The position numbers and the translations under genes were made by a program. Positions 8,564 to 33,898 of a stretch of DNA of 37,170 nucleotides are shown piece after piece. Source of the DNA: Candidatus Borkfalkia faecipullorum (lineage in GTDB: Bacteria > Bacillota > Clostridia > Christensenellales > Borkfalkiaceae); contig DXFX01000082.1 of assembly GCA_019114245.1 (NCBI GenBank), forward strand, positions 1 through 37,170. Direction: 5' to 3'. The notes under the pieces are model-generated. The model made no database searches and had not been told where the DNA came from. It worked only from the letters and a program-made list of their open reading frames with translations. Each line of letters starts with the position of its first letter. Within the stretch, counting starts at the first letter, position 1.

Positions 8564-8592
8564 TTGACATTTAATCAACAAATGTATAAAAT
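8564..8592 (+). promoter_or_regulatory. Probable main promoter of the glycan locus
   Basis: A consensus TTGACA (8564-8569) is spaced 17 bp from TAAAAT (8587-8592). It is the best promoter upstream of the lipoprotein gene at 9105, implying a leader of about 500 nt. A second TATAAT at 8783-8788 has no good -35 and may be a weaker, activator-dependent promoter. Confidence 0.7.
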
Positions 8593-9104
8593 AGTAGCAA
8601 GGGGAAAATTTGTTTTCTCCTTCCTTTTTTGTTTGCTTGGAAAATATTTCCTGAAAAGGAAAAATTGTTAAGAAATTTATCAGGTTAAAAGTTAGTAGGA
8701 AAAGGAAAAGAAAACTCATAAAAAAGTCAATATATGAAATAAACTGTGCGTTGATTGATAAGAAAAAGGGAAAAAGAACGCTTATAATGGTTTTGTAAGA
8801 TGGCAGAACAGTTTTTGTCTGTATGTCTGCAAGGCTATGAAGCAGGAACAAAAAACGGATCCGTTTTTTGTTGGTTACCACCAACAAAAAACGGATCCGT
8901 TTTTTGTTGGTTACCACCAACAAAAACACCTGTTATCAGCCTTTTGCGGCGCGGCAAACGGGTAGCATGGAGTGAGAAAGTATGCAGGGGAATCCCGGCA
9001 GACTTGCAGACAGGAAAAGGAGTTCTGGCTTCAATGGTTCGGGGGAAGAAAAGGCCGCAGGGAAAACGGCCAGCTCTTTTGTCCGAACGGAAAAGGAGGG
9101 TAAA
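8593..9104 (+). other. Long A+T-rich leader without a convincing gene
   Basis: The stretch to about 8800 is markedly A+T-rich compared with everything around it. It contains purine-rich runs and a small hairpin (GGAAA-ATA-TTTCC near 8640). A TATAAT lies at 8783-8788. The tandem palindromic repeat occupies 8849-8926, and normal base composition resumes after it. A GGCCG/CGGCC hairpin lies just upstream of the ribosome binding site (AAAAGGAGGG, 9091-9100). I could not match a known riboswitch. An open frame at 8800-9108 begins with ATG, has no ribosome binding site, and ends overlapping the lipoprotein ATG (ATGA); it is discussed as a finding, not called as a gene. Confidence 0.6.
8849..8926 (+). 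repeat. Tandem 36-bp palindromic repeat (two copies plus part of a third)
   Basis: A 36-bp unit (8849-8884) is repeated without change at 8885-8920, and the first few bases recur at 8921-8926. Each unit contains a perfect palindrome centred on ACGGATCCGT with A6/T6 flanks, followed by a second inverted repeat GTTGGT-TACC-ACCAAC. Because the units abut, 8849-8875 and 8880-8906 form a perfect 27-bp stem with a 4-nt TACC loop, and an alternative shifted hairpin uses the second unit. In RNA each A6-stem-U6 element also resembles a bidirectional terminator. It lies in the leader of the glycan locus, so a transcription-attenuation or protein-binding role is plausible. Confidence 0.9.
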
Positions 9105-12100
9105 ATGAAAAAAATTTTGGCGGTTCTGGCAGTCTCCTGCACGGTGATGCTGTTTGCGGCTTGTCAGGACAAAACCTATGATGTCACGTTCATGGTGGAC
9201 GGCGCCCAATACGGCGAAACGCTGACCGTGAAAGAGGGCGAAACGGTCACGCTTCCCGCGGCTCCCCAAAAAGAGGGATACCGCTTTATCGACTGGTACG
9301 AGGCCGATGTAGAGGAAGCGTTTGACGATGCAGCGGCGGTCAGCCGCGATTACACTCTTTCCGCAAAGTTTGAGGAAAATGTTTACACGCTGTCTTTCGA
9401 CGGCGGCGATGCGGAAGGGGAAATGTCCTCTGTGGAACTTACTTATACGCAGGAATATACCCTTCCTGCCTGCACTTACGAGTGGACAGACCACGCGTTT
9501 GTCGGCTGGGCCTTGGAAGCGGACGGCGAAATGACCTATGCGGACGGCGCCAAAGTCAGCAAACTGACGGCGGAGCACGAGGCGGAAGTTACGCTGTACG
9601 CCGTGTGGAGCGAGCAGTATTACACCGTATCCTTCGACGGCGGCGACGGATTGGGTTCGATGCAGTCCGTCAAGGTCCCGATGAGCGGAAAAGTCTCTCT
9701 TCCCGCAAACGCCTTTGTAAAAGAGGGCTGGCATTTTGCGGGCTGGGCGACGCAGGAAAACGGCGAAGCCGTCTATACGGACGGTGCCGAAATTTCCGCC
9801 CTTACGCAGACCGTGGGCGGCAGCGTGACGCTGTACGCCGTATGGGAAGAAGATTATTACCTTGTCCGCTACAATGCCAACGGCGGGGAAGGCACGATGG
9901 CGGAGCAGAAGGTCAAACTCAGCGAGACGGCTGCGCTTACCGCCAACGCATTCACCAAAGAAGGCTATACCTTTGTCGGCTGGGCAACGTCTGCGGACGG
10001 GGAAGCCGTCTATGACGACGCGGAACAGGTCACAGCTCTCGCATCGCAGAACGGCGCCGTTATCGAGCTGTATGCCGTGTGGCGCGGCGCTCCCGAAACG
10101 TACACCGTTGTGACAAAAATCCAACAGGCGGACGGCAGTTTTACCGAGACCAGCGAGCAGAAAGACAGCTATTTCGGCGAGACGGTTTCTGCAACGGCGG
10201 AGGAAAAGACGGGTTACGAATCTCAGATCCTCAACAACAACGCCGTCCTGGACGGCGGAAACGATACGGTCATCACCATCGAGTACACACTCAAAGAGTA
10301 CACGGTGACGGTGACGGGCGTGTACGGGACCAAGAAGTTTGAAGCGGCAAAGCAGACGTTTACCTATCTCACGGAAACGTTTGCGGCAGACGTTTCAAAA
10401 ATCGTCGAGGTGGACGGCGCTGCGTACAAGTTTGTCTCTTCCGAGGACAGCCTGACCGTTGAAAAGAACACGGCGGAAAACATTTTCATCGAAGCGAAAT
10501 ACGCCATCGGCGTTTCCACGGCGGAAGAGTTTGCCGACGTGTACAACAACAAGCACACGCTGGATCTGTTCCTGGAAAACGACATCGACTTTACCGAATA
10601 TTTCAAGACGCATTCCTTCTCGGGCGATACGCCGTATTTCTTCTGCAACTGGAACGATTTTACGGGTACGCTGGACGGAAACGGGCATAGCCTGACGGGA
10701 CTGACCCGCGGCATCAACGGCGACGGGACCTATACATACAACAGGCATTACGGCTTCTTCGGCGGCATGGCGGGCACCTTCAAAAACGTGTATATCCAGA
10801 TGGAACTCGCCGTCAATGCGGGCGAAGGGGGCGGATTCACCAACGGCGCCATCATTCAGACGCTGAAAGGAACGCTGGAAAACTGCATTTTTGACGTCAC
10901 GCTCCATTACTACATCGATTGGGGCGCATGGGATTGCGGGTTGTTCGATTCCGTAGAGAATACCGCCGTCGTGCGCGACTGCGTGTTTATCGTCAACAAT
11001 CATACGCCCGGAGCGCTGTTTGCGCGCAATCAGGCGGACTTCACGGTCGAAAACGTGGCGTTTATAGGAAATTATAACATTGAAGCGGAAAATCTTCTGC
11101 GCGGAACGTCGGACGGAAAGCCGCATACCAAGATGAAAGATCTGTACGTGTTCACCTCTATGGAACAGGCTGTGCAGGGCGTCGGATACGCTCTGAAAGC
11201 GGATTACGCTCAGGGCAGCGTGGTCTGCAACAGAAGTATCTGGGAGGACAACACCTCCAAACTTTCCGAGCTGTTTGCAGGGATGAACGATGTTTTTGAC
11301 GCGTCCTACACGGTCGTCACAAAGACGGAAACTTCGGAAGGCGTGTTTGAAGAGAGCAGCCGCATCGAAGAGGGCGCGCTGTTCACGATGGCAGCCGTTA
11401 CGGCGGAAGAGAAAGAGGGCTTTGTCTGCACGGTCTCGGGGGACAACGTTCTCATCGACGGAAACAGGCAGATCACCGTTACCGTTCAGTATTCTTATCC
11501 CCGCTATACGGCAACGCTGACGGGCGTCAGCGGAAACGGCGAATTCGAGATCGAAAGTAAAGTCTTTATGGAAAAGACCGAGGGCTTTACGATGCAATTC
11601 CCCGAAGAAGTGACGGTAAACGGCGTAACGTATCTCCTCGTCTCCGTCACCGATCAGCCCGAAGTTCCCGCAAACGCCGCGCAGAATATGCAGTTCAGGG
11701 CGGAATATAAAGTGGAAGTTTCCACGGCGGAAGAGCTTGTCAACGCGATGAAAAACGCACCGCAGGCAAACATCGTCCTGGTCAACGACGTCGACCTGTC
11801 CGATTACCTCGCCGCAAATCCCTGGAACAGCAGGGACACTTCCGAAAACGGCGCATTCTTCAACGTTCCCTTCTCCGGCGTTCTGGACGGACAGGGATAT
11901 TCCGTGACCAACCTCATCTCCACGGCAGGGCTGGTCGACCGCTACCTGAATACGGTATTTCGTGAGATCTCCGAAAAGGGTATCGTGAAAAACCTGCACA
12001 TCCAGGCGTACCTCGGCCTGTCGGCGGGCGGGGAAGGCGCAAGGATGGGCTTGTTCATCGGCAACCTCTACGGAACGGTGGAAAACTGCTTCTTTGAGAT

Positions 12101-13400
12101 CCATGCGGAATACAACGTAGACTGGTATATGTACGGCGCGGCTCCCATTTACAACCTGGGCGAAAAGGCCGCCGTGCGCAACACGGTGTTCTACATTCCC
12201 AACACGAACGGCCTGCGCATGATCTGCTCCACGGGATGGGGACAGGCGTTTGAAGGGTACGGCGTGTTTGACAAAGTTGCGTTTGTGTACGGAAATTCGG
12301 ACGTCAACAACTCTCTGCCTACGCTGTACAATCCGAACATCACCAACATTTATATCATCAGGGCGGACAAATCCGCAGGCGAATTCAACGATGCAAAGGC
12401 GCTCAATTCCGAAAGCTACAAGGCGGCGGAAACGGGCGACAAGAACAGCAAGGCTTATTGGGACGCCACGAGCTTCGAGGCGATCACGGCCGCAATGGAC
12501 GGCTTCACCTTCACGGCGAACAAGCTGATGTTCGGTGAAAAAGTCATTGCCGACTACGACGGGGTGAATGAGGTCTCCAACGCGTACGATTTCGTCACTT
12601 CCGTGCGCAATCATCCCGCAGGTTCCTTCAAGCTGACGCAGGACATCGACATGAACGATTATCTGCAGGCGTATCCCTGGAACTGGACGGACGTGAGGGC
12701 GTTCTTCGATGCTTCTTTCTCGGGCACGCTGGACGGGCAGGGACATTCCGTGCTGAACTTCACTTCCACCGCGGGGCTCATCAACCGTTGGGAAAATGCC
12801 GTGTTCCGCGAGATCACGGAAGAAGGCGTCATCAAAAACGTGCATCTGCAGGTTTCCCTCGGCGTGACCGCGTTTGAAGGACAGGACAGGGCCATCCTTT
12901 TCGGGAATATGTACGGCACGATCGAGAATTGTTTCTTTGAGATCGACGTGCAGACAGACAGCTCGTGGGGGATGTACGGTGCGTCCGTGTTCTATCGCCT
13001 TGCGGAAACGTCCTCTGTGAAAAATACGGTGTTCTACATTCCCAATTCGTCGGATTTCCGCCTCATGTGCGCCAATACGGGCACGGATGCGCTGGGAACG
13101 TTTGAAAACGTGACGTATGTCTGCGGCGGATTCAATATGCCCGGATTGCTTCCCAACCAGGTCAACCCGAATATTTCGGGGATCAACCTGATCAAGGTGG
13201 ATGAAACGGCGGGAACGTTCAGCGAAGTCAAGACGCTGAAAGCGGATTATGCGACGGGCAGCACCGCAAACGACGCTTCCCTGTGGGAAGACAGCACGTT
13301 CGACGCGGTCAATGCTGCGATGAGCGGGTTCACGTTCAGTGCAGATAAGATCCTGTTCGGCGAAACTGTCATCCGCGATTATTCTGCCGCGCAGGCATAA
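9105..13400 (+). CDS. Large modular surface lipoprotein: InlB repeats and beta-helix modules
   Basis: This 1431-aa exported lipoprotein has a signal peptide and lipobox (FAAC, Cys20). Residues about 25-325 hold four InlB B-repeat/Listeria-Bacteroides-type units, for example YTVSFDGGDGLGSMQSV ending in GSVTLYAVW. A MucBP-like beta segment (about 331-466) leads into a beta-helix-like module (about 470-657; GTLDGNGHSLTGLTRGINGD, HYGFFGGMAG, GTLENCIFDVTLHY). A second MucBP-like segment (about 735-870) follows, then two modules of a related type (about 871-1150 and 1155-1431; STAGLI..R, YGT.ENCFFEI, NTVFYIPN). The modules resemble GLUG/pectate-lyase-like right-handed helices, but I see no catalytic residues. 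It probably binds polysaccharide or protein at the cell surface. ATG 9105 follows a strong AGGAGG. It is the first gene of the transport operon. Confidence 0.82.
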   Translation: MKKILAVLAVSCTVMLFAACQDKTYDVTFMVDGAQYGETLTVKEGETVTLPAAPQKEGYRFIDWYEADVEEAFDDAAAVSRDYTLSAKFEENVYTLSFDGGDAEGEMSSVELTYTQEYTLPACTYEWTDHAFVGWALEADGEMTYADGAKVSKLTAEHEAEVTLYAVWSEQYYTVSFDGGDGLGSMQSVKVPMSGKVSLPANAFVKEGWHFAGWATQENGEAVYTDGAEISALTQTVGGSVTLYAVWEEDYYLVRYNANGGEGTMAEQKVKLSETAALTANAFTKEGYTFVGWATSADGEAVYDDAEQVTALASQNGAVIELYAVWRGAPETYTVVTKIQQADGSFTETSEQKDSYFGETVSATAEEKTGYESQILNNNAVLDGGNDTVITIEYTLKEYTVTVTGVYGTKKFEAAKQTFTYLTETFAADVSKIVEVDGAAYKFVSSEDSLTVEKNTAENIFIEAKYAIGVSTAEEFADVYNNKHTLDLFLENDIDFTEYFKTHSFSGDTPYFFCNWNDFTGTLDGNGHSLTGLTRGINGDGTYTYNRHYGFFGGMAGTFKNVYIQMELAVNAGEGGGFTNGAIIQTLKGTLENCIFDVTLHYYIDWGAWDCGLFDSVENTAVVRDCVFIVNNHTPGALFARNQADFTVENVAFIGNYNIEAENLLRGTSDGKPHTKMKDLYVFTSMEQAVQGVGYALKADYAQGSVVCNRSIWEDNTSKLSELFAGMNDVFDASYTVVTKTETSEGVFEESSRIEEGALFTMAAVTAEEKEGFVCTVSGDNVLIDGNRQITVTVQYSYPRYTATLTGVSGNGEFEIESKVFMEKTEGFTMQFPEEVTVNGVTYLLVSVTDQPEVPANAAQNMQFRAEYKVEVSTAEELVNAMKNAPQANIVLVNDVDLSDYLAANPWNSRDTSENGAFFNVPFSGVLDGQGYSVTNLISTAGLVDRYLNTVFREISEKGIVKNLHIQAYLGLSAGGEGARMGLFIGNLYGTVENCFFEIHAEYNVDWYMYGAAPIYNLGEKAAVRNTVFYIPNTNGLRMICSTGWGQAFEGYGVFDKVAFVYGNSDVNNSLPTLYNPNITNIYIIRADKSAGEFNDAKALNSESYKAAETGDKNSKAYWDATSFEAITAAMDGFTFTANKLMFGEKVIADYDGVNEVSNAYDFVTSVRNHPAGSFKLTQDIDMNDYLQAYPWNWTDVRAFFDASFSGTLDGQGHSVLNFTSTAGLINRWENAVFREITEEGVIKNVHLQVSLGVTAFEGQDRAILFGNMYGTIENCFFEIDVQTDSSWGMYGASVFYRLAETSSVKNTVFYIPNSSDFRLMCANTGTDALGTFENVTYVCGGFNMPGLLPNQVNPNISGINLIKVDETAGTFSEVKTLKADYATGSTANDASLWEDSTFDAVNAAMSGFTFSADKILFGETVIRDYSAAQA

Positions 13401-13410
13401 AAGTAAAGAT

Positions 13411-13484: not shown

Positions 13485-15146
13485 ATGAAAAAAACATTGT
13501 GCATCCTTTTAACTCTTGTATTGCTGGCCGTCACCTGCGCCTGCAAACCGCCCAGGATCAACGAAAATGTTGCCGATCCGAATAAAACGCCGCTCTATGT
13601 TGCCATCGGCGACAACGGCGTCGGCACGGAATTTTTGTACAATCTGGAAAAGGCGTACGAAGCGTATAATCCCGAAGTGGACGTCGTCATCAACCAGCGT
13701 GACTCCGAGCTTTCCAACGGCCTCGAGTATATCAAGACCGCCACGGAGGACATCATTTATGTCAACAGCGAGTTCACCTTCACGCAGTATGGAAACTATG
13801 TGCTCGACCTCACGGATATGACCGCTTCCAAGGCGTACGACGAAAACGGCGCCTATGTCGGCATGGGCAACGGCACAAAGTCCCTGCAGGACAAAATGAT
13901 GTACTACGAAAACGGATTCAACCTCGTCAACCAAGGGACGAAAGAAGATCCCGGATTCCTCGGCCTGCCCTGGTTCAGCGCCATTTACGGGCTGTGGTAC
14001 GACATGGATCTGTTCGACACGGAAAACCTGTACGATCTTCCCGAATACACGGGCTTTGACGGCGTGGCAAACACGGGCGACGAGTATTTCGGGCCGGACG
14101 GAAAGGAAGGAACGTACGACGACGGACTTACCGCAACCTGGGAGGACATGAAAGCTCTCCTGCAGGTGATGAAGGAAAAGGGGATCGTACCCTTTACTTT
14201 TTCGGGAATGCACTCCTGGATGCGCAATTTCTGGCTGGACGTCATCCTCATGAACTATGAGGGCATGAGCGATTATACTCTCTGCTATACGTTCGACGGC
14301 ACCGATTCCGATTTCGGCGAGATCAACGCGGACAACGGGTATCTTCTCAAACAGCAGGAGGGCAAAAAGGCGACGCTGATGGTGGCGGAAAAGATCGCCA
14401 AAGACAAACTGTACAGCACGCCTTCCCTCTATACGACGCAGACGCACCTGCAGGCGCAGATCGATTTTCTGAGAAGTACGACGACGGACAGCCCCGGGGC
14501 TTTTCTCATCGACGGCAGCTGGTGGGAATATGAAGCGAACGACGAGTTTGAGAGAATGGAAAATATCAGCAAAGAATTTGCCCGCGGCACCCGCAGGTTC
14601 GGATATTTCCCCATTCCCCGCTTTGTCGGAACGGAAGGGTTGAAAGACCAGATCAATACCCAGCAGTATATCAACAGCATTTCCAACTTCATGATCGCCG
14701 CCAACGCGAAGACGAAGGTCAAGGACGTCGTGGAAGACTTCCTTCTGTTCTCCCATTCGGAAGAGAATCTCATCAATTTCACCAAGACGACCAACCTGTT
14801 CTGCCTGTACGAGTACGACATGAGCAAAGATCTCGACAGCCTCACGCCGCTGGCGCAGAGCGTGTACGATCTGATGCGGGATGAAAACGTTGTCATTTAT
14901 TTCTCGGGGAAGGACGCCCTGACGATGAACGGTTACACCGCGACGCAGGCGCAGAACTGCCTGCGCGCGAAGAACAACACCTTCTTTGAAAACTGGGATT
15001 TCCTCACCAAAGTAGGAAACATGAACTATATGGACGCCATCCGCGATATGGCATTCGATGACGAAAATGAACTGACTGCTGCCACATGGTTTGAAGGATT
15101 GGGCGAAGCCTGCTCCAAATCGACGTGGGATACGTATTTCGGTTGA
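13485..15146 (+). CDS. ABC transporter sugar-binding lipoprotein
   Basis: This extracellular solute-binding protein (553 aa) would capture an oligosaccharide and deliver it to the two permeases encoded next. It has a lipoprotein signal with Cys20 (AVTCAC; the -2 Cys is unusual but tolerable). The body has the two-lobe binding fold of the SBP_bac_1/8 class: PLYVAIGDNGVGTEFLYNLEKAYEAYNPEVDV at the N-lobe, LGLPWFSAIYGLWYDMDLF, an acidic loop GPDGKEGTYDDGL (about 205-217) typical of this subgroup, and GAFLIDGSWWEYEA with paired Trp residues likely to stack on sugar. At 553 aa it is longer than most monosaccharide binders, as in proteins for oligosaccharides. Stem-loops flank the gene on both sides, which would suit overproduction relative to the permeases. 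Confidence 0.9.
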   Translation: MKKTLCILLTLVLLAVTCACKPPRINENVADPNKTPLYVAIGDNGVGTEFLYNLEKAYEAYNPEVDVVINQRDSELSNGLEYIKTATEDIIYVNSEFTFTQYGNYVLDLTDMTASKAYDENGAYVGMGNGTKSLQDKMMYYENGFNLVNQGTKEDPGFLGLPWFSAIYGLWYDMDLFDTENLYDLPEYTGFDGVANTGDEYFGPDGKEGTYDDGLTATWEDMKALLQVMKEKGIVPFTFSGMHSWMRNFWLDVILMNYEGMSDYTLCYTFDGTDSDFGEINADNGYLLKQQEGKKATLMVAEKIAKDKLYSTPSLYTTQTHLQAQIDFLRSTTTDSPGAFLIDGSWWEYEANDEFERMENISKEFARGTRRFGYFPIPRFVGTEGLKDQINTQQYINSISNFMIAANAKTKVKDVVEDFLLFSHSEENLINFTKTTNLFCLYEYDMSKDLDSLTPLAQSVYDLMRDENVVIYFSGKDALTMNGYTATQAQNCLRAKNNTFFENWDFLTKVGNMNYMDAIRDMAFDDENELTAATWFEGLGEACSKSTWDTYFG

Positions 15147-15154
15147 TCCGATTG

Positions 15155-15225: not shown

Positions 15226-16284
15226 ATGGATGATAATGAGGAAAAGAGATCTGTAACGCAAAAGATCTTTTATCCCGTAAGCTGGCTTTTCGGGAAATGC
15301 CGAAAAGTACTCGGCGGCGCTCTTTACGATGTATCCGTGCGCATACACCAAAAGAGGGAAGAAAGGCGGGGTACAAAGCAGAAAAAGCTTTCCAGTTATA
15401 AAAAGAGCGAACTGCGTTTTTTATGGGCGATCTTCTTCTGGCCGATCGTCTGTTTTTTTGTAGGCTATGTCGCCTCCAACTTCAACTCCTTCCTGCTCGC
15501 GTTTCAGGAATACGACGTGGAGACAAACAGTTTTCACTTTATCGGCGACTTCCGCAACTTCACGCGTATTTTCAGGGAACTGAAAGTGACGCCGGGAATG
15601 TCGCTGATGGTGACAAACTCCATTATCTACTATCTGTTCACGACGGTGGTGTGCGGGGCGATCGGGTTATACGTCGCCTTCATGATCTATAAAAAAGTCC
15701 CTGCAGGCAATTTTTTTGTGGTCATTCTGTTTCTGCCCGCCATCATTTCCAACATCGTCTGGGTGCTCATCTATAAGTATTTCGTCGAGTACGGCCTGCC
15801 CCTCGTGGTAGGGGATCCCGACATGATGAGTCTCATCATGGACCCGGATACATCCTTTTTGTCCCTGCTGATGTTCGGGCTGTGGATCGGGTTCGGCGGA
15901 AACCTGCTCATCAATACGGGCGCGATGATGCGCGTTCCCAGGGATTGCCTGGAAGCGGCGAGCCTGGAAGGCTGCTCTCTCTGGAGAGAGTTCTGGACCA
16001 TCACGTTCCCCGTCATTTTCCAGACGTGGGGCGTGGGCATCATCTGCGGCGTCATCACTCTGTTTTCCGGTTCGCCGTCTACCTATTCTTTCTTCGGGGC
16101 AGACGCGCCGCTGGAAACGTACACCTTCGGCTACTATTTCTTCATGATCGTCGTCAACGGCAAGGACACCGAGCTCAACTATCCGTATGCCGCGGCGGCA
16201 GGCCTGATGTTCACGGCCGTGGTCGCACCGCTCACTTACTTTGTCAAGTGGCTGTTCAGCAAAGGCCCCAACGTGGAGGTGTGA
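15226..16284 (+). CDS. ABC sugar transporter permease (LplB/UgpA type)
   Basis: This membrane subunit (352 aa) of a binding-protein-dependent importer of the MalF/UgpA class starts with an unusually long, basic cytoplasmic extension (residues 1-65, many Lys/Arg). Six predicted transmembrane helices follow. The EAA loop that docks the ATPase is clear: EAASLEGCSLWREFWTITFP at about residues 244-263. The start ATG 15226 has AGGGG upstream. It lies between the binding protein and the second permease, with 1 nt to the latter, so the three form one transporter. No ATPase gene lies in the window; systems of this class in Firmicutes commonly share a single MsmX-like ATPase encoded elsewhere. Confidence 0.92.
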   Translation: MDDNEEKRSVTQKIFYPVSWLFGKCRKVLGGALYDVSVRIHQKREERRGTKQKKLSSYKKSELRFLWAIFFWPIVCFFVGYVASNFNSFLLAFQEYDVETNSFHFIGDFRNFTRIFRELKVTPGMSLMVTNSIIYYLFTTVVCGAIGLYVAFMIYKKVPAGNFFVVILFLPAIISNIVWVLIYKYFVEYGLPLVVGDPDMMSLIMDPDTSFLSLLMFGLWIGFGGNLLINTGAMMRVPRDCLEAASLEGCSLWREFWTITFPVIFQTWGVGIICGVITLFSGSPSTYSFFGADAPLETYTFGYYFFMIVVNGKDTELNYPYAAAAGLMFTAVVAPLTYFVKWLFSKGPNVEV

Positions 16285-16285
16285 C

Positions 16286-25669: not shown

Positions 25670-26824
25670 ATGAAAAAATTTGACGTCAACGGCTATCAGA
25701 TCAGTTTCTGGAATTATGTCGCCACTCACTTGCAGGGCGAGGAAATGGTGGATCTGATGAAAAACATGGGCTGCAATCTGTATATGTCGCCCGAACACAA
25801 GATCGCGGAAGGGCTTCCCAATATGCACAAGGTGCTCCGCCGCTGCGAGCAGCTGGAAATGCCCTGCATCGTGTACGATCACCGCGTCACCCTGCGCGTG
25901 CTCCTGGATAAGGGCGAAGGGGAGTACATTGCCAATCTCAAAGCTGCGTATGCCGATTACAAGGATTATCCCGCGGCTCTTTATTGCTTTGTTTGGGACG
26001 AACCCAACTCGGACGAGGAGTATGCGGGCGTCATCCGCGCCTGCGAACTGATGCGCGCGGAAACGGGGCTGCGGCCCTTCGTTTCCCTCAACCATGTGGG
26101 GATGCTTGCGGAAAAGGACGCGGACCGCGTTCTCAGACTTGCGGCGGAAGGGATCCGCCCCGACGTTTTGCTGTACAACTGTTACAGCCAGTGCATGGAA
26201 GAGGAATGCGACCGCCGTCAGGGGCTGGAAAACTATTACCACAACCTGCAAAAGTTTATTGAGGCGGGCAAAAAATACAACCTGCCCGTCTGGCAGTCTC
26301 TGCTGCTGACAGGGCACCTCTGCCTTGCAAACCCCACGCAGAAACAGCTCCGCTGGCAGCTGAACGTCGGCGCGGCGCACGGCGTCACGGGATTTTTCTG
26401 GTTCCACCCGCTGGAGCTGGGATACTCTCCCGATGCCTGCGGCCACGCGATCGACTGCCGCGGCAACAAGACGCCCAAATACGATATGGCGGCGTACGAA
26501 AGTTTCCGCTTTATGGAGGACGTTGCGTCTAAATTACAGGGGTACGTACACGAAAAAACGTACCATTTTCACACAAACGAAGGGGAGTTCGAGCGCTTCT
26601 ATGCGGACCGCGACGAGCTGATCGCGCAGGTGTACACGGAATACAACCGCCCCGCGGTTATCGGGAAATTTGTCGGCAAAACAGATCCTTCCCGCCGCGC
26701 CGTCATGCTCGTAAACGCCTCTCAGGAAAACATTTGCCATGCGCGCATTACCTTCGGCGGAGAGAAACCCTTTACGGACGATGTGTATTTGTCGGCAGGC
26801 TCGGCAAAGATCTACGAACTTTAA
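25670..26824 (+). CDS. Putative cytoplasmic glycosidase-like TIM-barrel protein
   Basis: This 384-aa protein has no signal peptide, so it acts in the cytoplasm. Its pattern suggests a (beta/alpha)8 barrel of a clan GH-A-like enzyme: ISFWNYVATH near the start, MGCNLYMSPEH (about 33-43), YCFVWDEPNSDEEYAG (about 105-120) with an Asp110-Glu111-Pro motif at a likely strand-4 position, VLLYNCYSQC, LPVWQSLLLTGH, and VTGFFWFHPLELGY. The C-terminal 70 residues look like a small beta-sandwich (RRAVMLVNASQ...). Distant similarity to GH42 or related beta-galactosidases is possible, but I cannot place it in a CAZy family. It is followed 33 bp later by a GH3 gene and shares its transcript, which supports a role in breaking down imported sugar. 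GAGGA precedes the ATG. Confidence 0.65.
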   Translation: MKKFDVNGYQISFWNYVATHLQGEEMVDLMKNMGCNLYMSPEHKIAEGLPNMHKVLRRCEQLEMPCIVYDHRVTLRVLLDKGEGEYIANLKAAYADYKDYPAALYCFVWDEPNSDEEYAGVIRACELMRAETGLRPFVSLNHVGMLAEKDADRVLRLAAEGIRPDVLLYNCYSQCMEEECDRRQGLENYYHNLQKFIEAGKKYNLPVWQSLLLTGHLCLANPTQKQLRWQLNVGAAHGVTGFFWFHPLELGYSPDACGHAIDCRGNKTPKYDMAAYESFRFMEDVASKLQGYVHEKTYHFHTNEGEFERFYADRDELIAQVYTEYNRPAVIGKFVGKTDPSRRAVMLVNASQENICHARITFGGEKPFTDDVYLSAGSAKIYEL

Positions 26825-26857: not shown

Positions 26858-29008
26858 ATGAAAGAAAAAGACATCTTACAACTCATGCAAAAAATGACGC
26901 TGGAACAAAAACTCGGGCAGATGAGCCTGTGTGAGTTCGGCGATCTCATGCAAAACAGCGACAATGCTTTTACGGGGCCGAAAGGGGAGTTTGCTCTCAC
27001 GGCGTCCCAGAAGAAGATCGTCGGCGGCGTGCTCAACTTCAAGGGCGCGGCGGAGATGATCGAATTGCAGAAAAAACATTTGGAAGAGGATCCCAACAAG
27101 ATCCCGCTCCTGTTCATGATGGACGTGATCCACGGGTACGTCACCGCGTTTCCCATCCCTCTGGCGCTCAGCTGCAGCTTTGACACAAAGCTTGCCGAGC
27201 ACGTCGCGCGCGCTTCCGCGGTGGAATGCGCCACGGGCGGCGTAAAGATCACCTATTCGCCGATGGCGGACCTGATGCGCGATGCGCGCTGGGGCAGGGT
27301 GATGGAGGGCTATGGGGAAGATCCCATGCTTTCCGCGCGTATGTCCGCCGCCTTCGTCAAGGGGTACCAGAAAAACGTGGATCCCCGCTTTGTCGTCGGC
27401 GGGTGCGCCAAGCACTTTGCCTGCTACGGCGCCGCCGAGGCGGGCAGGGACTACAACTGCGTGGATCTGTCCGACTATACGATGAACAACTATTATCTGT
27501 CGGGCTATAAGGCGTGCGTGGACGCGGGCGTGATGATGGTGATGACGGCGTTCAACTCCCTCAACGGCGCGCCCTGCACGGGCAACATGATGCTCCGCCG
27601 CAAACTGCGCGAGGAGTGGGGCTTTGACGGCGTCGTCGTCAGCGACTACAATTCCGTTGCGGAGATGATCAACCACGGGTACGCCAAAGACCTGCGCGAG
27701 GCGGCAAAACTTGCCATTCAGGCGGAATGCGACATGGAAATGGTTTCCACCAGCTACCTGCAGACGGGCGCTTCGCTCGTGGAATCGGGCGAACTGACCA
27801 TGGAGCAGATCGACCGCAGCGTGTACCGCATTCTCTCCCTGAAAAACAAGCTGGGACTGTTTGAAAATCCTTACGGCGCGGCGGATGTGCAGGCGGAAAA
27901 GAAATATTACAGATGCCCCGATTTTCTCGCCCTTGCGCGCAGCGCGGCGGCGGAAAGCGCCGTCCTTCTCAAAAACGAGGGCGTTCTTCCCCTGAAAAAG
28001 AAAGAGGGCATCGCCCTCATCGGGCCGTTTGCGGACAGCAAGGAGATCATCGGCGGCTGGAGCTGCAATGCGGACAACAAGCTTGCCGTCACCGTTCGCA
28101 CGGGATTGGAAGAGGCAGGCGCAAAATTCACCTATGCGGCGGGTTGCGGCGATGCGCTGGATGAGACGGATACTTCTGGCATCGAAGAGGCGGTCAAGGC
28201 CGCGCAGGAAAGCGAAACGGTGCTGCTCTGCCTGGGAGAAAGTATGCGCTATTCGGGAGAATGCAAGTCCCGCACCGATCTCACCCTCTCTCCCGCACAG
28301 CAGGAACTGTTCAGGCATGTCTATGCCGTCAATAAAAATGTCGTCGTCGTGCTGTTCCAGGGCAGACCGCTGGATCTGCGCGCCGTTCTCGACGCGCCCG
28401 CCATTTTCACGATGTGGCATCCCGGTACGGAGGGCGGCCGCGCCTGTGCCGATCTGCTTTTCGGAAAGTGCAACTTCGGCGGAAAGCTCACCATGTCTTT
28501 CCCGTACTGCGTGGGGCAGATGCCTCTCTATTATAATCACTACAACACGGGCAGGCCCTTCGATCCTGCAGGAAATCTCGCCGAATGGAAGTCCAAGTAT
28601 ATCGACGCGCCCAACGCGCCGCTGTTCGGGTTCGGGTACGGGCTGAGTTATTCAAAATTTGTCTGCAGGGATGTCAGACTTTCGTCGGAAACGCTGCGGG
28701 CAGGCGAAAAACTGCGCGTCGCGGTCAAGGTAAAAAACGACAGCGACGTGGACGGCAGCGAAGTGATCCAGCTGTATATCCGCGACGAGGCGGCCAGCCG
28801 CATCCGTCCCGTGAGGGAACTGAAAGATTATAAAAAAATCTTTCTGAAAGCGCATGAGGAGACGACGGTGGAATTTTTCCTCGAAAAGAAAGACCTCGCT
28901 TTCTGGCACGAGGGCGGTCAGGTTTATGCCGAGGAGGGTGAATTTACCGTCTTTGTCGGAAACGATTCCGCTGCGCTGAATTTTAAAAAATTTGTTTACA
29001 TTGCCTGA
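26858..29008 (+). CDS. Glycoside hydrolase family 3 (beta-glycosidase)
   Basis: This retaining exo-beta-glycosidase (716 aa, no signal peptide, so cytoplasmic) would release terminal sugars from imported oligosaccharides. The GH3 barrel (about 20-340) has the usual marks: LFMMDVIHGY, GGCAKHFACYGAAEAGRDYN (Lys185-His186), and GFDGVVVSDYNS with the nucleophile Asp263. The GH3_C alpha/beta sandwich spans about 380-590 (SAAAESAVLLKNEGVLPL, ALIGPFADSKE, GTEGGRACADLLFG), and a fibronectin-III-like domain ends the protein (about 640-710). The overall order resembles BglX-type enzymes. Substrate (beta-glucoside, galactoside or hexosaminide) cannot be fixed by eye. ATG 26858 has AGGGAGAG upstream, better than the in-frame codon at 26825. 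The AraC promoter overlaps the last codons of this gene. Confidence 0.93.
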   Translation: MKEKDILQLMQKMTLEQKLGQMSLCEFGDLMQNSDNAFTGPKGEFALTASQKKIVGGVLNFKGAAEMIELQKKHLEEDPNKIPLLFMMDVIHGYVTAFPIPLALSCSFDTKLAEHVARASAVECATGGVKITYSPMADLMRDARWGRVMEGYGEDPMLSARMSAAFVKGYQKNVDPRFVVGGCAKHFACYGAAEAGRDYNCVDLSDYTMNNYYLSGYKACVDAGVMMVMTAFNSLNGAPCTGNMMLRRKLREEWGFDGVVVSDYNSVAEMINHGYAKDLREAAKLAIQAECDMEMVSTSYLQTGASLVESGELTMEQIDRSVYRILSLKNKLGLFENPYGAADVQAEKKYYRCPDFLALARSAAAESAVLLKNEGVLPLKKKEGIALIGPFADSKEIIGGWSCNADNKLAVTVRTGLEEAGAKFTYAAGCGDALDETDTSGIEEAVKAAQESETVLLCLGESMRYSGECKSRTDLTLSPAQQELFRHVYAVNKNVVVVLFQGRPLDLRAVLDAPAIFTMWHPGTEGGRACADLLFGKCNFGGKLTMSFPYCVGQMPLYYNHYNTGRPFDPAGNLAEWKSKYIDAPNAPLFGFGYGLSYSKFVCRDVRLSSETLRAGEKLRVAVKVKNDSDVDGSEVIQLYIRDEAASRIRPVRELKDYKKIFLKAHEETTVEFFLEKKDLAFWHEGGQVYAEEGEFTVFVGNDSAALNFKKFVYIA

Positions 29009-29056: not shown

Positions 29057-29887
29057 GTGCCGAAAAGCAAAATCAGCAACAACGGGTATTACGAATTAAA
29101 GACGGACTTGTTTTCGCATATCAAACTGGAACGGCGTCAGCTGAACTACGATATGCCCATGCACTTCCATCGGAATCTGGAATTTCAGTACATAGAGAGC
29201 GGGTGTTACCGCACGGTGGTGGACAACAAGGAATATGTGTTTGAAAAGGATGAAATGGTGTTTATTCCGTACTGCCTGCAGCACATGGCAGACGCAAGCG
29301 ACACGCAGTCTATCCTCTTCATCATTCCCCATGCCATCATGCAGGATTTTACCTCCTTTTTCCGCCACCGTACCCTCAATATCGAGCTGAAAGACAGAAA
29401 GTTCAACCGCGAATTCATTCTGCCCGTCATGGAGCTGATCCTCGCCGCGCCCTCCCAGCTGAACAATCCCATCGTTGCAAAGGGTTACGTCAACGTCATT
29501 TTCGGGCTTCTCACCCAGCACTACGGGTATGTCAAGTACGAAAATTTCTCCAATCCCAATTTCCTGCTCGATCTCATTCAGTACATCGATCAGCACAGCA
29601 ACGAAAATTTAACGCTGGATCGGCTGGCGGAACAGTTCGGGTACAACAAGTTTTACCTGAGCCGCATTTTCAACAAGACGTTGGGCGCTTCTTTGACCGA
29701 TTACGTCAATCAGGTACGGGTACAGAAGTTTGTCAAACAATACAGGGACGGCTGGGAAGGAAACATTGCCGACCTCGCCTTTTCGTGCGGATTTGAAAGC
29801 ATCCCGTCCTTTTACAGGACGTTCAGCCGCGTGTTTTCCATGACGCCGAAAGAATACTTTGAGCTGGAAAAGGAAATTTTCTGGTAA
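29057..29887 (+). CDS. AraC family transcriptional regulator
   Basis: This 276-aa transcription factor has an N-terminal cupin-type sensing domain (about 20-110; MHFHRNLEFQYIESGCYRTVVDNKEYVFEKDEMVFIP), as in sugar-responsive AraC proteins. Its C-terminal AraC domain has two helix-turn-helix motifs (about 172-272; LTLDRLAEQFGYNKFYLSRIFNKTLG and NIADLAFSCGFESIPSFYRTFSRVFSMTPKEYF). The start is GTG 29057, with AAGGAGG ending 11 nt upstream. It lies between the enzyme genes and has its own strong promoter, so it is the obvious candidate for controlling the locus. Its DNA sites are not known; the A+T-rich region around 8590-8800 and the GH20 promoter are places to look. Confidence 0.93.
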   Translation: MPKSKISNNGYYELKTDLFSHIKLERRQLNYDMPMHFHRNLEFQYIESGCYRTVVDNKEYVFEKDEMVFIPYCLQHMADASDTQSILFIIPHAIMQDFTSFFRHRTLNIELKDRKFNREFILPVMELILAAPSQLNNPIVAKGYVNVIFGLLTQHYGYVKYENFSNPNFLLDLIQYIDQHSNENLTLDRLAEQFGYNKFYLSRIFNKTLGASLTDYVNQVRVQKFVKQYRDGWEGNIADLAFSCGFESIPSFYRTFSRVFSMTPKEYFELEKEIFW

Positions 29888-29891
29888 ACCA

Positions 29892-29914: not shown

Positions 29915-29937
29915 CAGATTTTGTCTAAGGAGGCAGC

Positions 29938-32100
29938 ATGAGCAGAGGAAGAGTGACCATTCCCACGGATGAGAGCTTCGTGGAGGGAACTAAGGAGATC
30001 GCAAAGAAGTGGGGAGCGGATGCCGTGCGCGACTGCGACGGGACCGTTCTGCCCGCAAACGTGCAGGAACTGGCGGAAAAGGTGTACAACACCTATTTTG
30101 TCGTGCGCGGAGACAACGAATGGGCGGAGGCGCATCCGGACGAATGCCACCGCGTATTTCTCATGAGCGCGCGCTATCTCGCAGAGGGGAGCACGCTGGA
30201 AATGGACCCGATGCGGGGATATTTTGCCGATCAGATCGCGCCCGATACAAATCAGCTTTCCCGCTGGCAGGTGATCGACCGCACTTCGGAAACAGAGGTA
30301 AAAGATTGGTCTTTTGACAAAAAAACGGGGTACGTTGTACTGAAAAATGCGCAACCCATGCACGAATACACGGTGGATTTCCTGGCAAAGATCACCTGGC
30401 ATCCCGTGCAGATCTACAACTATCTCACCAACAACTGGACTTGCCCCAAACAAAAAATGTACGATCCCGCATTCCCGCAGACGGCGTCGTATGTGCAGCG
30501 TCACATGGAGGAATGGTGCAAGGCGCATCCGGAAACCAACGTCGTGCGCTTTACCACCTTTTTGTATCAGTTCACGCTGGTGTTCAATGAAAAGGGGAAG
30601 GAAAAGTACGTCGACTGGTTCGGCTACGGCATGAGCACCAGTCCCGCGCTTCTCGATGCCTTTGAAAAGGAATACGGCTATGCGCTCTGCGCGGAAGATT
30701 TTGTGGACGGCGGAAGTTACAACAATCCTTTCCGCGTTCCTTCCAAAAAATTCCTCGACTGGATGGATTTCGTGCAGAGAAAGGTCTCGTCTGTCGTCAA
30801 AGATCTCGTCAAAACGGTGCATAAATACGGCAAAGAGGCGATGATGTTCCTGGGCGACGACTGGATCGGTGCAGAACCTTACGGAAAATATTTCAAGGAT
30901 ATGCAGCTGGATGCTGTGGTCGGAAGCGTGGGCGGCGGCGTCACCGTGCGTATGCTCTCCGAGATCCCGCACGTAAAGTACCGCGAGGGCAGGTTTTTGC
31001 CTTACTTCTTTCCCGATACTTTCTTTGAAGGGAACGAGGACAACGCCGTTGCGGAGCTGGACAGGAACTGGACGACGGCGCGCCGCGCTCTGCTGCGCAA
31101 GCCGCTCGATCGGATGGGGTTCGGCGGATACCTTTCGCTGGCGGCAAAATTCCCCAAATTTGTGGACAGAGTGACGCAGGTCTGCGACGAATTCCGCACG
31201 ATCGTCGAGGCTGCGGGAAAATCCGCGCCCTATTGCGGGCTGACCGTGGCGATCCTCAACGCGTGGGGCAGTCTGCGCAGCTGGCAGAGCCATATGGTCG
31301 CGCACGAGCTGTGGTACCAGCAGATCTATTCCTATCAGGGCATTCTCGAAGCGCTTTCCGGGCTTGCCGTCAACGTGAAATTTATCAGCTTTGAGGACGT
31401 AAAGCGCGGCATCGATGCGGACATCGACGTCATCATCAACGTCGGCGAAGCGGGAACGGCATATTCGGGCGCGCAGTACTGGGCGGACGAACGCATCGTC
31501 ACGGCCATCCGCCGCTGGGTGCGCGAGGGACACGGCTTTATCGGCGTCGGTGAACCCACGGCGTACGCAAAGGGCGGCAGGTTCTTTGCACTGGCGGACG
31601 TGCTGGGCGTGGACAAGGAGATCTCCCTCACGCTGAGCGAGGATAAATACAACATCCAAAAGCAAAGCCACTTCATCACGGAGGACGTGCAGGGGGAGAT
31701 CGATTACGGCGAAGGGATGAAAAATATCTACGCTCTCGAGGGGGCGCAGGTGTTGGACATCGCCTTTTCGGACAGATTCCGCCGCAGCGTCAACGTGGGA
31801 GAAGTGCTCCTTGCGGCAAACGAATACGGCAAGGGCAGGGGCGTCTATATGGCAGGGCTCCCTTACAGCGCGCAGAATGCGCGCCTGCTGTACCGCGCCA
31901 TGTTCTGGGCGGCGCATAAGGAAGGGGAAATGCAGCGCGCTTTCTCCTCTCACCCGCAGACGGAATGCACTTATTATCCCGAAACGGACAGATACGCCAT
32001 CGTCAACAACGCGCAGACGGCCGTGCAGACGTACTTTTACGACAAAGACGGAGAGAGCGAGCTTCTCACTTTGCAGCCGCATCAGATCTTATGGAAATAA
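29938..32100 (+). CDS. GH112 1,3-beta-galactosyl-N-acetylhexosamine phosphorylase
   Basis: This cytoplasmic phosphorylase (720 aa) splits Gal-beta-1,3-GlcNAc (lacto-N-biose) or Gal-beta-1,3-GalNAc (galacto-N-biose) with phosphate to give galactose 1-phosphate and the hexosamine. Similarity to the bifidobacterial enzyme runs through the length: GRVTIPTDESFVEGTKEIA, WGADAVRDCDGT, VVRFTTFLYQFTLVF, RFLPYFFPDTFFEGN, GFGGYLSLAAKFPKFVD, GFIGVGEPTAYAKGGRFFALADVLGVD. The motif MMFLGDDWIGAEPY (302-315) contains Asp307, which aligns with the general acid (Asp313) described for the bifidobacterial protein. Some GH112 members instead act on Gal-beta-1,4-rhamnose, so the exact acceptor is unproven. AAGGAGG lies just before the ATG. 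It ties the locus to mucin- or milk-type glycans. Confidence 0.93.
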   Translation: MSRGRVTIPTDESFVEGTKEIAKKWGADAVRDCDGTVLPANVQELAEKVYNTYFVVRGDNEWAEAHPDECHRVFLMSARYLAEGSTLEMDPMRGYFADQIAPDTNQLSRWQVIDRTSETEVKDWSFDKKTGYVVLKNAQPMHEYTVDFLAKITWHPVQIYNYLTNNWTCPKQKMYDPAFPQTASYVQRHMEEWCKAHPETNVVRFTTFLYQFTLVFNEKGKEKYVDWFGYGMSTSPALLDAFEKEYGYALCAEDFVDGGSYNNPFRVPSKKFLDWMDFVQRKVSSVVKDLVKTVHKYGKEAMMFLGDDWIGAEPYGKYFKDMQLDAVVGSVGGGVTVRMLSEIPHVKYREGRFLPYFFPDTFFEGNEDNAVAELDRNWTTARRALLRKPLDRMGFGGYLSLAAKFPKFVDRVTQVCDEFRTIVEAAGKSAPYCGLTVAILNAWGSLRSWQSHMVAHELWYQQIYSYQGILEALSGLAVNVKFISFEDVKRGIDADIDVIINVGEAGTAYSGAQYWADERIVTAIRRWVREGHGFIGVGEPTAYAKGGRFFALADVLGVDKEISLTLSEDKYNIQKQSHFITEDVQGEIDYGEGMKNIYALEGAQVLDIAFSDRFRRSVNVGEVLLAANEYGKGRGVYMAGLPYSAQNARLLYRAMFWAAHKEGEMQRAFSSHPQTECTYYPETDRYAIVNNAQTAVQTYFYDKDGESELLTLQPHQILWK

Positions 32101-32101
32101 C

Positions 32102-32130
32102 AAAAAGCCGACCGCAAGGTCGGCTTTTTT
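32102..32130. terminator. Bidirectional terminator after GH112 gene
   Basis: A 12-bp stem AAAAAGCCGACC (32102-32113)/GGTCGGCTTTTT (32118-32129) with a GCAA tetraloop and U6 starts right after the TAA. On the minus strand it can also back up termination of the convergent GH20 gene. Confidence 0.93.
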
Positions 32131-32160
32131 CGTGTGCGGATGGACTTGTTTTCTTGAATA

Positions 32161-32189
32161 AACCCGCCGCGCGGAAAGCGCGGCGGGTT
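32161..32189 (-). terminator. Terminator of the GH20 gene
   Basis: A 12-bp perfect G+C-rich stem (AACCCGCCGCGC 32161-32172; GCGCGGCGGGTT 32178-32189) with a 5-nt loop lies 10 nt past the GH20 stop. On the minus strand it is followed by TATTC after the stem's terminal TT, giving a short U-run. The + strand side reads GCGTTTTT. Confidence 0.8.
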
Positions 32190-32198
32190 GCGTTTTTC

Positions 32199-33800
32199 TC
32201 AGCCGAAGGGCTTGATGATGCTGCCGTAGATCCAGTCGTTGTAAAGGATGGTCTTTCCGTCCTCGTCCTTGTCGGAGAGAAGAAGAATGTCCTCGTCCAG
32301 CTCGGGGATGCTTTTCAGCTTGCCTGCGGCAAATTGTTCCAGTCTGCGGCGGCAATGCTCCAGGCGGCGCAGCGCTCCGCCCAGGCGGATGTCGTGCCGC
32401 TCATACCCGAAGGGTTTGCATTCCTTTTCCCACTGTGCTTCAAAGGAAGAGGCAAAAACGCGCAGCCGCTTTTCCGCCTCACGGAAATCCTCGATCACGC
32501 GGCCGATCTGTTCCTTGTCCCCGCTGCGGTAGGCCGCGCGGGCGTTGATGCCGAGCAGACAGCGCTTTTCCTGCAAATGGCAAAGGTTGGCAATGGTTTT
32601 GAACATATACCCGAACTTCCCTTTGCAGAGGGGGAGCAGCTGTTCGTACGTTTTCGCATACAGATCCGCGTTTTTCTTGGAAACGGTGCGGTCGAAAATT
32701 CCGAGGAAGGGGTCGCTGTACAGCATATACTTGCTGGGGTTGCGTATTTCCGTGCTGTCGCCGTCCCGTTCCGCGTCCTCGACGTGCAAAAACTCGTCCA
32801 ACGTCATGCCGAACAGCTTTTTAAAGCCTGCGGCGATGGCCTCTTCTACATAGTTTCCGCGCGCATATTCCGCCGCATACCAGAGGGCGGGCAGGTTGCT
32901 CCAGATCGAACTTTCCGAACCGTCGTCTTTCCAAGAAGTGAAAAACGCTTCCTTCACGCCGTTTTCGCGGCAGGCCTTCAGGGCCGCTTTGGTCGCTTCG
33001 ATGCTGAAACGGTTGTAGGGGATAAATCCGCTCCACGTCCATGCCCCGCCTGCAAAAACGACTTCTCTGCCCAGCTGTTCGTGCGATTTCAGCATGGCGT
33101 CGTAGTGCTCGGTCTTCAGGCTGTAATAATCCCAGTAGATGAGGCGCAGATTTTCGGGGATGTCCAGCCCTTCCACGGTGAGGGGTTGGTCGGAAGGTTC
33201 GTATTTTCCGTGGTTTGCAAGGCGGAAAAACATATCCGACCAGATCATGGGGCGGAACCCGTATTTTGCGGCGATCTCGCACACGCGGTGCAGGTGCTTG
33301 CTCAGAATGCTGAAACGGTTGCAGTATCCGTGCTTGTCCAGGTATTTTCCCAGTCCCACGAGGTGCGCTTCGTCCATGCCGATGTTGATCTCGCGGCAGG
33401 TAAAGCATTCCGCGCAGGTGCGGAACATATTATCAATGAGCGTGTACACGCGCTCTTCTCCCGCAAGCAGGATATCGCCGATATCGGTGCAGTCGAAGTA
33501 AGCGGGCCAGCGCAGGGCGCCCACCAGGTGGGCAAGCGTCTGGATGCAGGGGATAATGGTGATTTTTTTCGTTTCTGCGTATTTTACCAGCTCTTTCAGC
33601 TCTTCTTTCGAGTATCTGCCGCGCAGGTATCCGAAGAAAGGTTCGCCCTCCACTTCATAGGTGTCCTCCGTGTAGAGCTGCAGGGAAGAAAATCCCATTT
33701 TTTTCAACACGTCTATGTAATTTTTTAACGTTTCCACCGAGTACACGGCGCCGCGAGAGCAGTCGAGCATCACGCCCACTTTCACTGCTTTTTTGTTCAT
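32199..33800 (-). CDS. Glycoside hydrolase family 20 (beta-N-acetylhexosaminidase)
   Basis: This 533-aa enzyme lacks a signal peptide, so it acts in the cytoplasm. GH20 enzymes remove terminal beta-GlcNAc/GalNAc, or release lacto-N-biose, by substrate-assisted catalysis using an Asp-Glu pair. Here the pair is Asp143-Glu144 in INIGMDEAH, after a barrel start (KVGVMLDCSRGAVYSVETLKNYIDVLKKMG) and IIPCIQTLAHL. Later barrel motifs are RPMIWSDMFFRL and VVFAGGAWTWSGF, whose Trp residues would line the sugar pocket. The usual N-terminal GH20b domain is missing, as in the short intracellular type, and about 170 helical residues follow the barrel. ATG 33798-33800 has GGAGG upstream; the open frame extends to 34175 but passes through the promoter. 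It is convergent with GH112 and shares its theme. Confidence 0.9.
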   Translation of the reverse strand: MNKKAVKVGVMLDCSRGAVYSVETLKNYIDVLKKMGFSSLQLYTEDTYEVEGEPFFGYLRGRYSKEELKELVKYAETKKITIIPCIQTLAHLVGALRWPAYFDCTDIGDILLAGEERVYTLIDNMFRTCAECFTCREINIGMDEAHLVGLGKYLDKHGYCNRFSILSKHLHRVCEIAAKYGFRPMIWSDMFFRLANHGKYEPSDQPLTVEGLDIPENLRLIYWDYYSLKTEHYDAMLKSHEQLGREVVFAGGAWTWSGFIPYNRFSIEATKAALKACRENGVKEAFFTSWKDDGSESSIWSNLPALWYAAEYARGNYVEEAIAAGFKKLFGMTLDEFLHVEDAERDGDSTEIRNPSKYMLYSDPFLGIFDRTVSKKNADLYAKTYEQLLPLCKGKFGYMFKTIANLCHLQEKRCLLGINARAAYRSGDKEQIGRVIEDFREAEKRLRVFASSFEAQWEKECKPFGYERHDIRLGGALRRLEHCRRRLEQFAAGKLKSIPELDEDILLLSDKDEDGKTILYNDWIYGSIIKPFG

Positions 33801-33835
33801 TACAAGTATTTCCTCCCCGAATTGGTGATGATTGA

Positions 33836-33856
33836 TTTTGAAAAATTTTTTCAAAA
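33836..33856. promoter_or_regulatory. 21-bp palindrome just downstream of the GH20 promoter
   Basis: TTTTGAAAAA (33836-33845) and TTTTTCAAAA (33847-33856) are exact reverse complements around a single T. The site lies roughly +7 to +27 from the predicted GH20 start point, where a bound repressor would block transcription. A second small palindrome, TTCTTT-C-AAAGAA (33933-33945), lies about 35 bp upstream of the -35. Operator function is inferred. Confidence 0.5.
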
Positions 33857-33869
33857 CCGGGACTATTTT

Positions 33870-33898
33870 ATTGTATTTCCCCGCGCGAAAAAAGTCAA
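33870..33898 (-). promoter_or_regulatory. Promoter of the GH20 gene
   Basis: On the minus strand TTGACT (33898-33893), 17 bp, then TACAAT (33875-33870). The predicted transcript has a leader of about 60 nt with the 21-bp palindrome near its 5' end. Confidence 0.75.

Follow-up and report, generated by a model that had tools for sequence, protein, structure and literature searches.

A probable glycan-utilization locus of Candidatus Borkfalkia faecipullorum that combines a GH112 phosphorylase with a recurrent importer and surface-protein core

Bifidobacterial lnp loci for galacto-N-biose (GNB) and lacto-N-biose (LNB) comprise genes for a glycoside hydrolase family 112 (GH112) enzyme, a binding protein, two permeases, an N-acetylhexosamine (HexNAc) kinase (lnpB), a transferase, and an epimerase, and Bacteroides polysaccharide-utilization loci (PULs) comprise SusC/SusD and surface glycan-binding proteins. 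Here we describe a locus of Candidatus Borkfalkia faecipullorum at positions 9102-33800 of a 37,170-nucleotide stretch of contig DXFX01000082.1 (assembly GCA_019114245.1), hereafter the window. Its genes follow one another in the order S1431, SBP (substrate-binding protein), PermA, PermB, S1367, DUF4838, S834, TIM384, GH3, AraC, GH112, and GH20C, all on the + strand save the last, which is convergent (Table 1). The locus shares GH112, a binding protein, and two permeases with the lnp locus, but the Pfam matches of its proteins include no kinase, transferase, or epimerase domain, and large exported proteins are present instead. With Bacteroides PULs it would share, under the model proposed below, surface capture and cutting that are coupled to import and repeated with different enzymes, but the protein families are others, and ATP-binding cassette (ABC) import would cross one membrane.

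A Gram-positive PUL (gpPUL) is defined as a regulator, a polysaccharide-degrading enzyme, and a carbohydrate transport system in one locus (PMC10318527; this and the other papers cited are represented by excerpts). The window locus has an AraC-family regulator; GH3, GH20C, and GH112 enzymes; and SBP with two permeases, the transported compound presumably being a carbohydrate. Like the gpPULs of Roseburia, Eubacterium, and Blautia, it groups a regulator, glycoside hydrolases, and an ABC sugar importer and has no SusC/SusD (PMC10318527). Unlike them, it has in its core two fixed parts, a giant exported protein with Ig-like domains and a lipoprotein with DUF4838, and this core is repeated with variable cargo; gpPULs are said to lack surface glycan-binding proteins, often having a carbohydrate-binding module in their place (PMC10318527, in excerpt). 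The Roseburia human milk oligosaccharide loci, which carry GH112 and GH136, likewise combine GH112 with an ABC importer and a regulator (PMC7335108), whereas the window shows no GH136-like sequence match to solved structures, has large exported proteins and DUF4838, and has GH20C, GH3, and TIM384 on the inside.

We consider it probable that the window carries a Gram-positive glycan-utilization locus on a reusable core, this copy serving Gal-beta-1,3-HexNAc-containing glycans. To the gene content, domains, export signals, conserved order, and module exchange observed here we add a proposal for surface binding, DUF4838 catalysis, glycan identity, and flux. Specifically, S1367 and the beta-helix-type lipoproteins S1431 and S834 would hold glycan at the surface of the cell; acting as a GH163-like enzyme, the DUF4838 lipoprotein would cut oligosaccharides off the held glycan; these would enter through SBP and the two permeases, with energy from an ATPase whose gene lies elsewhere; TIM384, GH3, and GH20C would trim the imported product in the cytoplasm; and GH112 would phosphorolyse Gal-beta-1,3-HexNAc to galactose 1-phosphate, which a GalT-like enzyme would pass into the Leloir pathway. 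If importer, giant protein, and DUF4838 form a core that has been copied again and again and takes exchangeable enzymes, Gram-positives would have a counterpart of SusC/D. This would help to predict the glycans eaten by the Borkfalkia group, and it points to two uncharacterised, directly testable protein groups: DUF4838 in Gram-positives and TIM384. A bolder version is possible though doubtful: that importer, giant surface protein, and surface endo-glycosidase form the lineage's own SusC/D counterpart, with several copies in some genomes and interchangeable cytosolic enzymes; that a GH163-like DUF4838 protein cuts Gal-HexNAc off glycoproteins; and that TIM384 is a new glycosidase family working with GH112.

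The core was delineated in stretches fetched around DUF4838 matches of at least 84 bits; weaker matches were left out, and one 3-kb stretch (L068) was excluded from the counts. DUF4838 matches occur in 26 of 40 genus genomes, with three in the window's own genome and up to 17 in one. The resulting set comprises 75 distinct DUF4838 genes (second copies of one cassette counted separately), 52 of which have at least 8 kb upstream. Profiles of the core genes, seeded from the same loci in which they were counted, place SBP, PermA, PermB, and S1367 upstream in this order at 41 of the 52 testable genes. S1367 is immediately adjacent to DUF4838 at 38, lies within 9 kb at 45, and is missing at 7, the gaps between the two genes being mostly near-zero or negative; with a tighter overlap filter, all four core genes are found at 35/52 and an adjacent S1367 at 34/52. 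The same core is present in fetched loci of two further families of the order (f18 and f32), including an f32 locus with core, S834-like gene, and GH112 (L286, genome G230). Near-full-length S1367 homologues occur in at least 12 of 297 order genomes (the window's own, G000; G296; six of f32; four of f18), and 45 have some S1367 profile match at E 1e-10, the additional ones mostly short pieces; with scoring limited to two candidates per genome, these counts are lower bounds. Among 391 class genomes, only the window's own gave an S1367 match at E 1e-20, with fragments in two others. SBP-PermA-PermB-S1367-DUF4838 is a general modular core of the lineage, not a GH112-specific invention, and because the gene order recurs in other genomes the locus is more than a chance assembly. 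The titles and abstract openings listed on Borkfalkia with polysaccharide utilization or mucin, and on Christensenellales with PUL, ABC, or solute-binding, contain no description of this core. A marked expansion is seen in G427, where the 17 DUF4838 matches lie over several contigs.

This arrangement bears on a rival explanation, which takes the exported proteins for adhesins or components of the surface layer that have nothing to do with nutrition and lie beside a sugar operon by chance. Adhesins often have Ig-like and beta-helix domains, and among the 50 Foldseek matches listed for the S1367 model (residues 430-1367; mean pLDDT 84.0, pTM 0.62), which are generic multi-domain beta proteins, there are an adhesin and S-layer proteins. 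Against this, the order with the importer is fixed at those 41 of 52 DUF4838 genes, the two genes all but abut, and three families have the same core; we regard the adhesin explanation as very unlikely.

The same gene set was also sought around named GH112 genes, using the best 80 of 495 confirmed loci, among which records near the window's genome may be missing. S1367-type and DUF4838-type tblastn matches both flank nine of the 80 (L160, L167, L182, L183, L184, L186, L189, L193, L224), several of which belong to genomes already sampled above; in L167, both lie downstream of GH112. A profile search finds both, downstream, in L201, DUF4838 without S1367 in L190, and an S1367-type match without DUF4838 in L200. 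The sequence-only reading, made from the letters of the window before these comparisons, had tied the exported genes to GH112. Co-occurrence stands, in nine of the 80 named loci, in the genus, and in another family (L286); specificity does not, GH112 following DUF4838 within the stretch at 6 of 75 genes (window, L054, L055, L059, L062, L066), and at a seventh if the GH112 in the stretch adjoining that of G408 is counted.

The cargo beside the cores varies and includes GH112, GH20C, GH3, GH2, GH31, GH127, GH78, GH94, GH1, and GH38. Pfam scans of 20 chosen genes downstream of DUF4838 identified three GH78-type rhamnosidases, two GH94, one each of GH1, GH2, GH38, and CE2, two flavin adenine dinucleotide (FAD) oxidoreductases, one major facilitator superfamily (MFS) transporter, and two proteins with repeat or Ig-like matches only, the rest having no informative match. 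GH20C-like genes are present in L121, L129, and L138, and near GH112 in four of the 80 named loci (L156, L162, L191, L199). This variety speaks against a core limited to host glycans; it is the cargo, GH112 with TIM384 and GH20C, that makes the window copy specific.

Comparison of individual loci reveals module exchange. A second GH112 type, about 60% identical, accompanies cores with GH31-, TIM384-, GH2-, and GH127-like genes (G408, G409, and twice in G425). L160 is 74% identical to the window in GH112 but far less so elsewhere (PermB 32%, DUF4838 29%, TIM384 29%, SBP 26%, S1367 25%), whereas its identities to L054 are 59% in GH112, 52% in PermB, 45% in TIM384, 44% in DUF4838, 33% in SBP, and 29% in S1367. 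In the DUF4838 tree (26 rows), a single clade of the 10 GH112-locus rows is rejected (approximately unbiased test, p-AU 4.12e-71), with at least four state changes, as is a clade of window, L066, and L160 (p-AU 8.14e-5). DUF4838 and PermB of L160 both group with type 2, PermB in a starred group with L054, L055, and L126. In the GH112 tree (31 rows, quick method, no characterised galactosyl-rhamnose (GalRha) phosphorylase among them), by contrast, L160 with type-2 rows is rejected (1.25e-46), and L160 and window fall in a starred group of seven. As the groups were picked after the identities had been seen, the p-values are indicative. GH112 has joined several cores, and a single origin of GH112-bearing cores is rejected.

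The window GH112 scores 939.8 bits against TIGR02336 (cut-off 560.3) and has the three domains of the lacto-N-biose phosphorylase (LNBP) family (PF09508, 628 bits; PF17385, 312.7; PF17386, 55.3). It aligns nearly full length with B. longum LNBP and has identical residues at Asp313, Arg32, Asn166, and Pro161-Val162 of that enzyme (positions counted by eye, roles presumed). These matches support, at the level of sequence, the assignment to the Gal-beta-1,3-HexNAc (GNB/LNB) type, as had been predicted from the window alone. Window residues 156-157, near the presumed acceptor site, may mark specificity: the pair classes are PV (n=30, window type), PT (n=29, Clostridium/Bacillaceae type), ST (n=19, mostly type-2 loci), and AT (n=1, L062), some genomes entering twice. 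PF09508 has matches in 28 of 396 order genomes, 27 above cut-off, and the window GH112 as query matches 14 of 40 genus genomes. In G418, a C-terminal piece of GH3, AraC, GH112, and GH20C are still together. L062 (G296:C22) has a divergent GH112, 51% identical to that of the window and possibly of different specificity; a paired S1367 and DUF4838 and an S834-like gene lie upstream of it.

ORF calls with Pfam/NCBIfam recover the remaining content listed in the sequence-only reading: SBP, two permeases, AraC, GH3, GH112, GH20, and four exported proteins, of about 1431, 1367, 834, and 600 aa. Its three or four cytoplasmic enzymes become four candidates (TIM384, GH3, GH112, GH20C), in none of which an export signal is seen by eye, with GH20C now on the minus strand; domains and export signals also support its sketch of exported proteins, ABC importer, and cytoplasmic phosphorylase. 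Lipoboxes, read by eye, are clear in S1431, DUF4838, and S834; SBP has a lipobox-like signal, and S1367 has a signal segment with no convincing lipobox or C-terminal anchor. No Pfam family matches the 553-aa SBP, which is called a binding protein because it carries a signal sequence, is followed by two permease genes, and matches NgcE weakly (23 bits); as to ligand, matches to chitin-oligosaccharide and XylA-named binders are insignificant or very weak. S1431 and S834 have a beta-helix-type domain in common, with three main segments 40-53% identical; neither matched a lacto-N-biosidase (GH136) structure at E up to 1 in a sequence search, in which no GH136 model was searched by name and no folds were compared.

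The DUF4838 protein has an enzyme-like architecture, GH67-N followed by DUF4838 (Pfam). Across an alignment of 76 rows, Asp269, Asn297, Tyr321, Pro175, and Pro328 never vary, and 93% of the rows have His210. In the literature, the family was found as a table entry that labels a DUF4838 protein of marine Polaribacter as GH163 (PMC9870897, in excerpt), and a GH163 removes N-acetyllactosamine (LacNAc) antennae from N-glycans through an endo cut (PMC10154615, in excerpt). The activity that marks GH163 is that of an endo-beta-N-acetylglucosaminidase. Such an activity on type-1 antennae, if the two are alike, would release the Gal-HexNAc-type unit needed by GH112. Its presence in cores that lack GH112 as well makes it more likely that the DUF4838 family is polyspecific.

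TIM384 could be assigned neither to a known Pfam family nor, by sequence, to a solved structure in the PDB. Its model (10 rows) shows a TIM barrel followed by a beta-domain (mean pLDDT 79.5; other four models 63.6-65.5), and the 50 Foldseek matches listed, with TM scores to query of at most 0.59 (GH5 0.59, GH35 0.57, GH164 0.55), are one pyruvate kinase and otherwise TIM-barrel glycosidases of various kinds. All 10 rows have Asp110-Glu111-Pro112 where strand 4 ends. An Asp-Glu pair at this place is typical of the substrate-assisted hexosaminidases GH20 and GH123; as a lead only, it hints at such an enzyme, which would fit Gal-HexNAc substrates. Homologues above 500 bits are found at 15 loci including the window (some genomes twice), 14 with GH112; the remaining locus, L126, meets a contig end after GH2, and a 3-kb contig of the same genome has GH2 and GH112. 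Since GH112 served to fetch most of these loci, the order sample is the less biased test: only G000 and G296 of 297 genomes have such a homologue, and both have GH112. Weaker homologues occur elsewhere without GH112 in the stretch. The window's own genome has a TIM384 paralogue (L291, G000:C77, 4510-5661, -) beside another SBP-PermB-PermA set, with weak, below-cut-off Pfam matches to DUF4434 and xylose-isomerase-like domains.

Several observations weigh against our preferred reading. The GH163 link of DUF4838 is that single Polaribacter entry, and solved structures match DUF4838 only in short pieces at E 0.0017 or weaker. A lectin role of S1367 stays putative, since the structures listed as matching it are all multi-domain beta proteins of a generic kind. 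For TIM384, a retaining mechanism of the ordinary GH-A type is doubtful, as no conserved Glu lies in the segment after strand 7, and GH112-bearing cores without TIM384 exist (L062, L286). Several genus GH112 genes lie outside the core, and close GH112 relatives without it stand at L046, L048, and L049; in G412, G406, and G296, the fetched stretches around genes of about 77% identity contain no core. The beta-glucosidase-like GH3 is odd for mucin. Finally, nagA and nagB models have no match in the window's own genome (1.88-Mb assembly, 92.7% complete), which leaves no obvious catabolic route for HexNAc; nagB is above cut-off in 12 of the 40 genus genomes, so loss or assembly gaps are possible, and it has matches at E 0.001 in 19, its presence not tracking GH112. 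Mucin or host-glycan use, the substrate first suggested for the window, is no more than plausible, given the GH3 type, the rarity of GH20C near GH112, and these nag results.

The GH3 type and the nag results favour an alternative that we consider unlikely, namely that the locus serves a glycan of dietary, plant, or microbial rather than host origin and that GH112 acts on another beta-galactoside, as Gal-beta-1,4-L-rhamnose phosphorylase does. The GH112 family includes GalRha phosphorylases (PMC8950772, in excerpt), and sister cores carry GH78 rhamnosidases, which weigh against a host glycan, as well as GH94 and GH1. The TIGR02336 equivalog score, the Pro-Val pair and other aligned residues identical to those of the B. 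longum enzyme, the adjoining GH20C hexosaminidase, and the lack of any rhamnosidase domain in the Pfam matches of the window locus all argue the other way. Type-1 milk-type or ganglio-series oligosaccharides ending in lactose, with GH112 and GH20C taking Gal-HexNAc and GH3 the reducing-end glucose, would account for all three enzymes together, but Pfam finds no GH2/GH35/GH42-type beta-galactosidase domain in the locus; furthermore, milk oligosaccharides are not expected in birds, L160 with its GH112-bearing core is a chicken metagenome-assembled genome, and the names avistercoris and excrementavium of relatives point to birds. We judge this substrate improbable. For Gal-beta-1,3-HexNAc use as we prefer it, the window's own genome offers a GalT-like gene (PF02744, 37.9 bits, above cut-off) and a stand-alone UgpC/MsmK-like ATPase gene (G000:C3; 341 bits, short of the 432 required for the equivalog), whose product could, judging from this match, power the importer.

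Table 1. Features of the glycan-utilization locus and the gap before it
Feature	Position	Strand	Basis
Tandem 32-bp perfect palindrome x2, central GGATCC	8847-8925	.	gap before operon, read from sequence
S1431, exported lipoprotein; List_Bact/Flg_new repeats and beta-helix-type domains common to S834	9102-13400	+	Pfam; lipobox LFAAC
SBP, 553-aa lipoprotein-type substrate-binding protein; core gene	13485-15146	+	weak NgcE match, gene order
PermA, ABC sugar permease; core gene	15226-16284	+	BPD_transp_1 35.2 bits
PermB, ABC sugar permease; core gene	16283-17170	+	BPD_transp_1 51.5 bits
S1367, giant exported all-beta protein, Ig-like and other beta-rich modules; core gene	17174-21277	+	Pfam, model
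DUF4838 lipoprotein, 600 aa, GH67 N-terminal domain; candidate surface glycosidase, GH163-like; core gene	21298-23100	+	DUF4838 135 bits
S834, exported lipoprotein, Big_2 Ig domains and beta-helix-type domains	23112-25616	+	Pectate_lyase_5 match under its cut-off
TIM384, cytoplasmic orphan TIM-barrel protein, invariant Asp-Glu-Pro (110-112)	25670-26824	+	model, alignment
GH3, beta-glucosidase-like, cytoplasmic	26861-29008	+	Pfam and further sequence matches
AraC-family regulator	29057-29887	+	Pfam
GH112, galacto/lacto-N-biose phosphorylase-type	29938-32100	+	Pfam, TIGR02336, alignment
GH20C-type beta-N-acetylhexosaminidase	32199-33800	-	ORF open to 34175; likely start ATG 33800

The likely start codon of GH20C is preceded by GGGGAGGA. 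Its C-terminal domain (155.7 bits) and catalytic domain (40.4 bits) both score above cut-off, and its structure matches are 2epk and 5a69; a + strand ORF antisense to it (31965-33728) has no Pfam match and was rejected as a gene. The palindrome pair is a candidate operator, terminator, or assembly feature, and a search of the window's own genome found no further copies. The flanks are ordinary, with recX, nnr, and a CitMHS-type transporter upstream and V-type ATPase genes downstream. Two upstream + strand ORFs (4743-5846, 5957-7279) were likewise rejected, having no Pfam match and lying opposite the coding strand of an FHA-ABC protein (5615-7231). An ORF at 4213 in the upstream flank is MazF-like (named by eye, not scanned), and a DUF2764 protein (34852-35382) lies between V-type ATPase genes for an E-like subunit (by eye) and subunit A (by Pfam).

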